From Haloferax marisrubri (GTDB lineage: Archaea > Halobacteriota > Halobacteria > Halobacteriales > Haloferacaceae), in assembly GCF_001469875.2 (NCBI RefSeq), contig NZ_LOPW02000005.1:1-64000 (forward strand): 64,000 bases of DNA. The letters run 5' to 3'. Made by a program: the position numbers and the translations under genes. Under the pieces are notes generated by a model. The model saw only the letters and a program-made list of their open reading frames with translations, had not been told where the DNA came from and did not search any database. This document shows, piece after piece, positions 9,314 through 12,517 of this stretch (position 1 is the stretch's first letter; every line of letters begins with the position of its first letter).

Positions 9314-10177
9314 TCACTCGGAGACGATGTCGCCGACGGTGACCGCGTCACCGACCGACAGCGTCTCGCCCCACGACGACTCCGGCACGGCGGTGTTGAC
9401 CATGAGTCGGAAGTCGTGGTCGAACCAGTCGCCGCCGGACCACTCGGGGAGCGTCTCGCGGCGCTTCCTCACGAGCGTCGTCCGGAAGTCCGCCGTCTCC
9501 TCGCCCGTGTCGGGGTCGCGGCTCGGGACGACACAGCGCTGGCAGGGGTTGACGCCCTCGAAGGCCGCCTCGCCGACGGTGAACTCGACGACCGTTCCGC
9601 GCCGGTCGAACAGGTGGTCCTCCCAGAAGGGTTCGGTCGCGTCTAGGACGAGGTTCGGCCGGAGGCGGCGGCGCATCTCGTCGGCGTCGATGCCGTCGAA
9701 CCACGAGGCGACCGCGTCGAGCGTCCCCGTCGAGATGACCGTCGGGCCGCTGGCCTCGGTGTCGTCGGGGAACCCGCCGGCGGGGTCGCGCCGGAGTTCG
9801 ACCGGGTAGCCGAAGTACGCCGAGAGCCAGTCGTCGGCCTCGGCTATCGGGCCGTCGTAGTCGTCCATCTCGGGGGCCGAGAGTTCGACCGTCCCGTCGG
9901 CGAGCGAGACGGAACTCCGGATTCGGTGGACCGCACGCTCACGCTTTCCGTTGACGTACTCGCCGTCCTCGTCGAAAATCGCGTACTCGCGGTCGCCGCG
10001 GAGCCCGCCGTTCTCGACGATGTCGGCGGCGGCGACGAACTCGGCGTCGAGCGACTTCACGGGGTAGACCGCGATGCGGTCGAGCGTCACGGCCGCCGCG
10101 CCGGCGGCCGCGGCCGCTGTCGTCCCCGCCTCGGTCGTCGCTGAGGTGTTATCGCCGGTCGGGCTCCCGTCTGTCAT
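9314..10177 (-). CDS. MOSC domain protein with N-terminal beta barrel
   Basis: 287 residues. After a low-complexity Thr/Ala tail (1-28), a MOSC N-terminal beta-barrel domain (about 31-130, IAVYPVKSL) leads into a MOSC domain (about 140-285) with the conserved NPCQRC (C212, C215). MOSC proteins handle the molybdenum cofactor or reduce N-hydroxylated compounds (mARC-like). C212 is the likely Mo ligand or sulfur carrier. The start codon abuts the psmA2 stop codon without spacing, so the two are co-transcribed and probably translationally coupled. The link between proteasome and MOSC is unexplained. Confidence 0.85.
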   Translation of the reverse strand: MTDGSPTGDNTSATTEAGTTAAAAAGAAAVTLDRIAVYPVKSLDAEFVAAADIVENGGLRGDREYAIFDEDGEYVNGKRERAVHRIRSSVSLADGTVELSAPEMDDYDGPIAEADDWLSAYFGYPVELRRDPAGGFPDDTEASGPTVISTGTLDAVASWFDGIDADEMRRRLRPNLVLDATEPFWEDHLFDRRGTVVEFTVGEAAFEGVNPCQRCVVPSRDPDTGEETADFRTTLVRKRRETLPEWSGGDWFDHDFRLMVNTAVPESSWGETLSVGDAVTVGDIVSE

Positions 10178-10927
10178 CTACTCCTCGCTTTCGTCCGTCT
10201 CGTCGGACTCGTCGTCCGCGGTCGCGTCGGCGAACAGCTCGGCGATGGTCTCCTCGTCGACGATTTCGTAGCCCGCCTCGGAGACGGTGACGAGGTTCAG
10301 CTCGTCGCTCTCGATTTCGTCGTCGGCCGCGACGAGCGCCTCGACGGCGAGCGCGAGGCCGTCTTCGAGCGACAGGTTCTCGGCGTACCCGTCTTCGAGG
10401 GCGGCCTGCACGTCCTCGCGGTGGCCGCCGATGGCGACCGCCTTCCACTCTTGGGGCGTCCCGGACGGGTCGGTCGCGAAGAGGCGACCCGAGCCGTTTT
10501 CGACGCCGCCGATGAGAAGCGACGCGCCGTACGGGCGAGTGCCGCCGGACTGCGTGCTCTCTTGGATGTTGTCGGTGATGGTCTTCGTGAGCGTCTCGAC
10601 GCCGATGGGCTCGCCGTAGCGCAGGTGCTCGCGCTGGGCGGTCGTCCGCGCGAAGTCCACGAGCTTCCGCGCGTCGGCGACGTGGCCGGCCGTGGCCGCG
10701 CCGAGCGCGTCGTCGAGTTTGTGCAGTTTCTCGATGCTTTCCGCTTCCATGAGTTCCGACGGGGTCGACCGGAGCGCCGCCAGAACGACGCCGTCGGCGG
10801 TGCGCACGCCGAGGACCGGCGCGCCGCGCTTGACGGCCTCGCGGGCGTACTCGACCTGATAGATGCGTCCGTCAGGGGAGAAAAGCGACGTACCGCGGTC
10901 GTAGGCCTGCTTGTCGTTTCGGTTCAT
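10178..10927 (-). CDS. psmA2: proteasome alpha subunit, second paralogue type
   Basis: 249 residues. The N-terminal gate and first strand YDRGTSLFSPDGRIYQVEYA (about 9-28) is the alpha-subunit signature; the acidic C-terminus is typical of halophiles. It forms the outer heptameric rings of the 20S proteasome and docks PAN-type ATPases. ALRSTPSEL replaces the ADKR-type stretch of the major alpha subunit, and the sequence matches my recollection of Haloferax PsmA2 (alpha2). Start 10927 is preceded by an AGGAGGT Shine-Dalgarno sequence lying inside a 13-codon leader ORF (10924-10965) that overlaps it by four bases. Confidence 0.92.
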   Translation of the reverse strand: MNRNDKQAYDRGTSLFSPDGRIYQVEYAREAVKRGAPVLGVRTADGVVLAALRSTPSELMEAESIEKLHKLDDALGAATAGHVADARKLVDFARTTAQREHLRYGEPIGVETLTKTITDNIQESTQSGGTRPYGASLLIGGVENGSGRLFATDPSGTPQEWKAVAIGGHREDVQAALEDGYAENLSLEDGLALAVEALVAADDEIESDELNLVTVSEAGYEIVDEETIAELFADATADDESDETDESEE

Positions 10928-10965
10928 CGTGCGACCTCCTCGCTCGTGTCGGCGACGTTCGTCAT
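10924..10965 (-). CDS. 13-codon leader ORF upstream of psmA2
   Basis: MTNVADTSEEVAR, ending at a TGA that overlaps the psmA2 ATG as ATGA. A TATA-like CTTTTTC (minus strand, 10991-10997) lies about 29 bases before this ATG, so the transcript probably starts at or just before it. The codons for E-E-V carry the AGGAGGT that serves psmA2. It could be a translated coupling peptide or simply a 5' leader. The same layout occurs at elp3 (43912-43953). Confidence 0.45.
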   Translation of the reverse strand: MTNVADTSEEVAR

Positions 10966-10983
10966 TACTCTTCGGTCAGTTCC

Positions 10984-11021
10984 GGAGGCGGAAAAAGCCT
11001 CCACACCCGGCATCGGTGTGG
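10984..11021. promoter_or_regulatory. overlapping inverted repeats upstream of psmA2
   Basis: GGAGGC/GCCTCC (10984-10989, 10997-11002) and CCACACC/GGTGTGG (11001-11007, 11015-11021) sit on and just upstream of the presumed psmA2 TATA element. The first encloses the T-rich box. They may be operator sites, but could be chance in GC-rich DNA. Confidence 0.35.
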
Positions 11022-11087
11022 GGTTCACGCTCGAACCGCCGGACGCGACGCCGATTTCCGACGAATAGCCGGCCTGAAACCCCGTGA

Positions 11088-11270
11088 TTACTCCTCGACG
11101 ACGTCCGCGTCGGGGGCGTTCCGCTTCACGCTCTCGATTCCCTGCTTCGCCTTCTGTTTCGACGCGTAGCCCTCGCCGGAGTCGGCGAGGATGTTCCCGT
11201 TGTCGTGGACGAGTCGCCACCGGTAGTCGTCCGCCGCGTCGACGAACACTTCGAAGTGCGCCTTGCTCAT
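11088..11270 (-). CDS. DUF1508/UPF0339 (YegP-like) small protein
   Basis: 60 residues, a single-domain YegP-type fold: FEVFVDAADDYRWRL, NGNILADSGEGYASKQKAKQGI. The bacterial family usually has two tandem copies; haloarchaeal ones have one. Function is unknown and it is probably cytosolic. The ATG at 11270 matches the conserved N-terminus. It lies between psmA2 and the membrane zinc-ribbon gene, all on the minus strand. Confidence 0.9.
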   Translation of the reverse strand: MSKAHFEVFVDAADDYRWRLVHDNGNILADSGEGYASKQKAKQGIESVKRNAPDADVVEE

Positions 11271-11338
11271 ATCAGGAGAACTGTTGTCAGCGAAGAAAAG
11301 TGTACTCTCCGGCGTCGGACCGTGCCCCCGAAACCGAC

Positions 11339-12253
11339 CTACGCCGCCTCGGGTTCGAGGGCGTCGGCGTCGACTTCCAGCAGTCGCTCCTCGCAGTCGT
11401 CGCAGCGGACGACGAACACCTCCCACGACCGGCAGCACGACTCGGCCGTCTCCGAGCCGAACCTGACGTCGCCCCCGCAGGCGGGACAGCGGTCGAGGTA
11501 GATGCGGAGCCCTCTCGCCAGCGCGCTCCGCTGTTCGCCCGTCAGCCGGTCCCAGTCGTCGAGGCGACCGTCGAGGGCGGCGTCGGCGGCCACGTCGGCG
11601 ACGAGCGCGGCGCGCGACTCCCACGTGCCGATGGTGGTGCCGTCGACGACCGCGACGAACCACCGGTTCCGAGACCGGGATTCCAGCGAGATGTCGTCCG
11701 CGTCGAGTCCGGTGAGGGCGGCGAGTCGCCGGCGAATCGCCGAGTCGTCGGTGCGCGCGACTTTGTCGTTCCACGTCGCCTCGAAGTCGGGGTCGAGTCG
11801 AAGCTCGTCGCCGGTCTCGTCCCAGTCGAGCGCGCCGGCGTTCAGGAGCGCCCGCTCCACATCTAACTCCTCGGCAGCCTCGCCGCCCTCGTCTAACTGG
11901 CCCGCCTCGACCTCGTCGCTCGGCGACTCGGCACCGGCGTCGCCCCCGGTCTTCGCGCCGGCCTCCGCGGACCCGACGCGGGTCGGCGTCGGCTCCTTGT
12001 CGAACCAGCGGAGGACTCGGTCGGGGAAGTACGTCTTCGTGAGCGTCGGCGTGCCGGGAATCAGGTAGCCGCGGAAGTAGATGGCCCCCGCGAAGAGGGC
12101 GAACGAGACGAGCGCGAGGGGCGGCCACGCGACGCCGAGCAACAGGCTGAGCGCGGCGGCGATGACGACGTTCACGATGGTACACGGCGTACACCGGTTT
12201 TCGCCGGTGTACTCGGGCTGGCGGAGTCGGTCTGTAAGTGTCGAGGCGGTCAT
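11339..12253 (-). CDS. two-helix membrane protein with C-terminal zinc ribbon
   Basis: 304 residues. C21-T-P-C24 precedes two membrane helices (about 26-44 and 46-64). A disordered acidic linker spans 95-130, and a soluble domain 131-250 contains GTWESRAALVAD. A zinc ribbon C256-X2-C259 ... C284-X2-C287 lies in the last 50 residues. The gene at 20656-21486 encodes a paralogue with the same order of parts. Function is unknown; a membrane-tethered nucleic-acid or metal-binding protein is a possibility. Confidence 0.75.
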   Translation of the reverse strand: MTASTLTDRLRQPEYTGENRCTPCTIVNVVIAAALSLLLGVAWPPLALVSFALFAGAIYFRGYLIPGTPTLTKTYFPDRVLRWFDKEPTPTRVGSAEAGAKTGGDAGAESPSDEVEAGQLDEGGEAAEELDVERALLNAGALDWDETGDELRLDPDFEATWNDKVARTDDSAIRRRLAALTGLDADDISLESRSRNRWFVAVVDGTTIGTWESRAALVADVAADAALDGRLDDWDRLTGEQRSALARGLRIYLDRCPACGGDVRFGSETAESCCRSWEVFVVRCDDCEERLLEVDADALEPEAA

Positions 12254-12517
12254 AGCGAGGGAAACTACGTTCCCTGTTATGAGGGCTCACCCGTCAATAA
12301 ACCTACCCGTCACCTGACGCGAACCTCACGGATGCTCCGCGACGCGGATGTCCCGCCGGACCGACGGACGACTCGCAGACGAACACACGGACGGGCTCAC
12401 AGACGGACTCACAGATAACTCGAATACGGCCCGCAGACGACGCGTGGCGGTCTTCGACGGCCCTTCCGATAGCACGCCTCACGCCCCGTTTATCGCTCCG
12501 CGGCGCGTCTATCGACT

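Follow-up and report, generated by a model that had tools for sequence, protein, structure and literature searches.

A leaderless-type micro-ORF overlapping psmA2 is conserved in architecture across the family of Haloferax marisrubri and may deliver ribosomes to the proteasome alpha2 gene

Introduction

In the window analysed here, a 64,000-nucleotide stretch of Haloferax marisrubri DNA, the gene for the 20S proteasome alpha2 subunit (psmA2) is preceded by an ORF of only 13 codons that ends on the psmA2 start codon. Is this arrangement an accident of one genome, and if it is not, what has been kept: the peptide, the DNA, or the passage of ribosomes from one ORF to the next? We compared the locus within the genus and across the family, and searched the same genome for similar upstream ORFs (uORFs).

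Results

Layout of the locus

The features of the locus are collected in Table 1. The micro-ORF, psmA2 and a MOSC-domain gene are contiguous cistrons. The psmA2 product is a genuine proteasome alpha subunit, with matches to the Proteasome domain (1.2e-51) and Proteasome_A_N in Pfam; its counterpart in H. volcanii DS2 is HVO_2923. A preliminary description of this DNA had placed a 13-codon ORF ahead of psmA2, overlapping the psmA2 ATG by four bases, and both statements were confirmed on the minus strand. It had also reported a T-rich box about 29 bases before the ATG and an AGGAGGT in the last codons. The box is present, at a measured spacing of 31 nt from its first T. AGGAGGT is also present but not in the very last codons, as the ORF closes with GCA CGA before its stop. 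A 98-aa GTG ORF that shares the frame of the micro-ORF and extends across the promoter was dismissed, since in 50 of 101 uORF loci this frame is interrupted by a stop on the way from the box to the uORF ATG.

Table 1. Coordinates of the features at the psmA2 locus of H. marisrubri, as positions in the window
Feature	Position	Strand	Remarks
Promoter-upstream block GTGAACCCCACACCGATGCCGGGTGTGGAGGCTTTTT	10992..11028	-	nearly invariant among Haloferax genomes
TTTTT promoter box (TATA-like)	10992..10996	-	first T 31 nt before micro-ORF ATG
Leaderless-type micro-ORF, 13 codons, MTNVADTSEEVAR then stop	10924..10965	-	ATG 10965, stop TGA 10926-10924
AGGAGGT, Shine-Dalgarno-like motif in micro-ORF codons 9-11	10934..10940	-	sequence
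ATGA, micro-ORF stop / psmA2 start overlap	10924..10927	-	psmA2 ATG at 10927
psmA2, 20S proteasome alpha2 subunit, 249 aa	10178..10927	-	Pfam PF00227, PF10584
MOSC-domain gene abutting psmA2	9314..10177	-	Pfam; psmA2 TAG then ATG, no gap

Against Rfam, positions 10000-12500 gave zero matches with an E-value limit of 1. When folded, neither the leader nor the promoter plus leader exceeded shuffled sequences in stability, and we therefore propose no hairpin mechanism. Beside the promoter, positions 10997-11028 of the minus strand hold an inverted repeat, CCACACC...GGGTGTGG, which is nearly invariant in Haloferax; it may be an operator, or it may mark where the upstream DUF1508 transcript ends. 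Apart from the box, the block at 10992..11028 was not found beyond the genus.

Conservation of the micro-ORF

In all 15 Haloferax genomes the ATG is retained, the ORF stays open for 13 codons and it overlaps psmA2 by ATGA, and the interior varies among them (MTNVADASEEVAR, MTNVALATEVVAR, MTNVAFANEVVVR, MTNIAFQNEVVVR, MTNVAAVRVVVLR). For the family survey, psmA2 was sought in 170 genomes and the upstream DNA was read at 129 loci. At 103 of the 129, from 21 genera, a leaderless-spaced ATG opens an ORF of 11-18 codons ending on the psmA2 start; the loci share ancestry, and these counts describe conservation rather than independent trials. Every locus whose leaderless-position ATG is not that of psmA2 itself (103/103) keeps the uORF and the stop/start overlap, which is ATGA (4 nt) in 101 cases and TGATG (1 nt) in two, both from Halorubrum. 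Loss of the ORF and overlap in near relatives had been named beforehand as a finding that would refute the idea, and their retention extends far beyond Haloferax. The uORFs have 11, 12, 13, 14, 15, 17 or 18 codons; because every length still ends on the psmA2 start, the variation comes in whole codons. Stops are absent from the 1096 codons of the uORF frame, whereas the other frames contain 95 and 44. In a chance control on a single genome, a shuffled leaderless ATG ended on the start in ~26% of trials. The pattern in one genome alone could be accidental; its conservation in the genus and family, the stop-free frame and a box at the spacing typical of this genome's leaderless genes put it beyond chance.

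The peptide, in contrast to the linkage, is not conserved. The overlap is invariant, and the 86 distinct uORF DNAs encode 75 distinct peptides, among them MSERDTARAGDRR in Halorubrum and MTALATTIHVGGDR, MNQYAVGRRFGGQR and MTDSEAVSAAEGSR. What is conserved is the frame, the overlap and a strong match to the anti-Shine-Dalgarno (anti-SD) sequence. On these data it is very improbable that the leader acts through a sequence-specific regulatory peptide, such as an attenuator or arrest peptide. The micro-ORF pN/pS is below 1 (~0.34-0.40; with few changes to go on, 0.22 for the SD part and about 0.4 for the rest), and the MTN start is conserved within Haloferax. Selection on the peptide is weak, and the ratio leaves room for some. 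However, an attenuator would be recognized by a conserved or residue-enriched peptide, and here both sequence and length are diverse, the length varying across genera. The common C-terminal GG.R is accounted for by the SD motif and CGATGA read in that frame. The reading was rejected on the diversity of the peptides.

Could conservation of a DNA element, an initiator or operator, account for the pattern, with the ORF as a by-product? Within Haloferax the ATGA at the start of the micro-ORF and the upstream block are indeed highly conserved. But the interior turns over freely while the frame and the end are retained, and length changes by whole codons, so we regard this explanation as extremely improbable.

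Promoter spacing and the clade without the uORF

As expected for a leaderless signature, the boxes of H. marisrubri genes peak 29-32 nt before the start codon (839 kb scanned); leaderless mRNAs make up 72% of the protein-coding transcripts of H. volcanii (PMC4983044). The distance from the box to the first ATG is 30-32 nt in 127 of the 129 family loci by a strict scan, the other two being placed by a relaxed scan. The remaining 26 loci, from four genera of one clade (g9, g15, g19 with Haloquadratum and g26 with Salinigranum), have no uORF, and there the psmA2 ATG itself lies 30-32 nt from a box of the form TTT[AT][AT], mostly TTTAT. The same spacing with and without the uORF indicates that the promoter is positioned relative to whichever AUG comes first, no matter to which ORF it belongs. 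This clade is the best control for the locus, and it supports the leaderless placement that the preliminary description gave to the micro-ORF.

In the alpha-subunit tree, one gain or loss divides the two architectures (support 97/93). The earliest psmA2 branch (g28, support 92/79) carries the uORF, which makes an ancestral uORF with a single loss the likelier, though not proven, history on this tree. No comparable micro-ORF was seen in the upstream DNA of alpha genes from other families of the order, nor upstream of psmA1, whose ATG follows a TGA by 6 nt. As a separate observation, alpha genes of other haloarchaeal families (L212, L213, L214, L216, L218, L223, L224) share a CCTTAC...GGTGAA-like element located 20-30 nt ahead of the start.

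The Shine-Dalgarno motif and the codon before the stop

The letters of the SD motif differ: GGAGGT in the Haloferax volcanii group, GGGTGATC in Halorubrum, and GGTGGTGA or GGAGGTG elsewhere. Its pairing with the anti-SD averages -10.9 kcal/mol at uORF loci, compared with -7.0 for shuffled sequences and -5.8 at uORF-less loci, and is below -8.4 kcal/mol in 97% of the uORF loci. In 81 of 101 loci, 11-12 nt separate the start of the core from the psmA2 ATG. In H. volcanii, SD motifs do not drive initiation in 5'-UTRs (PMC3986360). They contribute to reinitiation at overlapping genes, to an extent that depends on the gene (PMC6728339).

It could be argued that the micro-ORF is untranslated and that the transcript begins further down, giving psmA2 an ordinary short 5'-UTR. 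An SD in such a UTR would be ineffective by the H. volcanii results, the box spacing fits A10965, and the conserved frame, stop and overlap need translation as their explanation. This account is therefore very improbable.

In 77 of 86 uORFs the codon directly before the stop (10924-10929 in the window, with the stop) is CGA, which holds for 10 of 435 (2.3%) TGA-ending genes in 839 kb of the H. marisrubri genome. Its retention may reflect an effect on start context or on pausing.

Discussion

Termination-reinitiation at psmA2

The position, frame, overlap, SD motif and conservation of the micro-ORF can be read directly from the DNA. Taken together, they make it highly probable that an architecture-conserved leaderless micro-cistron delivers ribosomes to psmA2 by termination-reinitiation. 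Transcription would start at or a few bases from A10965, so that the mRNA would be leaderless and begin with the micro-ORF AUG. A ribosome initiating there would translate 13 codons and terminate at the UGA. During termination the embedded SD would pair with the 3' end of the 16S rRNA, and the ribosome would reinitiate at the overlapping psmA2 AUG, making alpha2 synthesis dependent on the micro-ORF. Reinitiation is probably repeated at the abutting MOSC gene, a likely third coupled cistron. The peptide would be largely dispensable, and ribosome delivery the conserved product. Judging by its title, the work of Gil et al. 2007 reportedly found proteasomal genes of H. volcanii to be transcriptionally linked with a MOSC gene.

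Coupling is strict at overlapping gene pairs of H. volcanii, and in the pairs tested a stop placed in the upstream gene eliminated translation of the downstream one (PMC6728339). The uORF loci resemble such pairs: the stop/start overlap is found in 103 of 103, and the upstream ORF carries the SD in its 3' portion, a feature that is frequent but not essential in coupled pairs. The H. volcanii alpha2 protein is acetylated on its initiator Met (PMC2910475), which is compatible with AUG initiation rather than with processing of a longer protein. On the other side, the pN/pS ratio would allow some selection on the peptide and SD strength differs among species, and both count against the proposed mechanism. 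The preliminary description had suggested that a ribosome finishing the micro-ORF is coupled to psmA2, and that a second ribosome could start there by Shine-Dalgarno. The coupling is well supported by the comparative data, and the tuning of alpha2 output that the description also raised is a possibility. Independent initiation is disfavoured by the 5'-UTR results from H. volcanii given above (PMC3986360), and we prefer reinitiation because of the effect of upstream stops in the tested pairs.

Possible control of alpha2 levels

In stationary-phase H. volcanii, the transcripts of all proteasomal genes rise, and only the alpha2 and PAN-B proteins rise several-fold (PMC2910475). The coupled leader would be a natural candidate for growth-phase control of alpha2. 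The micro-ORF could act as a brake or sensor, in which the reinitiating fraction varies with growth phase or stress and sets the alpha2 level. This proposal rests on the same coupling and is compatible with simple ribosome delivery. The protein changes above point to apparent post-transcriptional control (PMC2910475), psmA1 has no micro-ORF, and the enrichment of CGA before the uORF stop would agree with a regulated step. But PAN-B protein also rises (PMC2910475), and one clade has a directly leaderless psmA2 and no uORF. We consider such a sensing role possible, though unlikely. That the micro-cistron is the cis element for a post-transcriptional growth-phase response of alpha2, one that would shift the 20S composition from alpha1 to alpha2, is a still more doubtful proposal, offered tentatively. 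The micro-ORF provides a concrete, mutable element for the stationary-phase rise of alpha2 protein amid rising proteasomal transcripts.

Relation to known systems

The class of mechanism is already known. In mycobacteria, leaderless small ORFs are coupled to downstream genes by an RTGA overlap, and the linkage is conserved over the peptide (Shell et al. 2015, PMC4633059). The psmA2 uORF shares the short ORF, the RTGA overlap and the conservation of linkage rather than of peptide, and its promoter spacing fits a start at the 5' end of the transcript. It differs in keeping an SD inside the uORF and in having a sister clade with a directly leaderless gene; moreover, the mycobacterial study was bacterial and compared two species (PMC4633059), whereas the psmA2 uORF is archaeal and spans 21 genera. 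The overlapping pairs of H. volcanii (PMC6728339, PMC10666635) come from the same organism group and likewise have an ATGA overlap and an SD in the 3' part of the upstream member. They are, however, described gene pairs, whereas the upstream partner of psmA2 has 11-18 codons and no conserved product. Small upstream ORFs are also known from long 5'-UTRs in the same genus, but that survey covered only 150-250 nt UTRs with ORFs of 15-31 aa (PMC4983044), and a 13-codon leaderless uORF at 38 nt falls outside its range. Synthetic short uORFs with an internal ribosome-binding site are similar in design, with a nonsense peptide and a strong site by the stop, and boost translation of the target; they were engineered in E. 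coli (PMC13255528), whereas the psmA2 uORF is natural and of the leaderless type. A review regards short uORFs that deliver ribosomes as a possibly widespread mechanism (PMC12548453).

No description of an archaeal precedent, of conservation this deep or of a directly leaderless gene taking the place of the uORF was found in the openly accessible article texts searched. The locus appears to be an archaeal leaderless micro-cistron, kept across a family for its architecture rather than its peptide, on a central protein-quality gene. In organisms whose 5'-UTR initiation makes no use of SD motifs, it would also provide such motifs with a natural setting.

Similar architecture at other genes

A genome-wide scan covered 839 kb of the same genome. 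A DoxX-domain gene (G000:C17:365491, plus strand; L273:5400-5600) is preceded by a 21-codon leaderless-type uORF with GGAGGTG and an ATGA overlap. This uORF is kept in 14 Haloferax genomes aligned at the orthologous stretch, with TAATG and GTGA variants in two. An MnhE-type gene (G000:C17:41267, minus strand; L257:1200-1330) has an 18-codon uORF (MSQYRTSRRIVRSDFGGG, then stop) with GGAGGTGG and TGATG, kept in 8 genomes with diverged peptides of the same length and the SD. Thus at least two further Haloferax genes share the architecture, which may represent a class missed by ORF callers and UTR surveys. In a scan of two genomes, an overlapping upstream ORF was also present in G007 at 20 of 29 G000 start sites that have one, compared with 19 of 805 sites without, figures that we do not take as the size of the class because the 3' ends of ordinary upstream genes are mixed in.

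One other site drew attention. At G000:C17:45155 (plus strand; L257:5089-5160), a TATA box is followed by a GTCCAGRCGCGCGCTCCGGGCAGGGAGACGCGCAGCGTCAGGGC block that is nearly invariant across Haloferax genomes. The block has no Rfam match, and the 141-aa ORF that follows it has no Pfam match. The invariant GTCCAG... leader is likely an RNA or DNA element rather than a peptide ORF.
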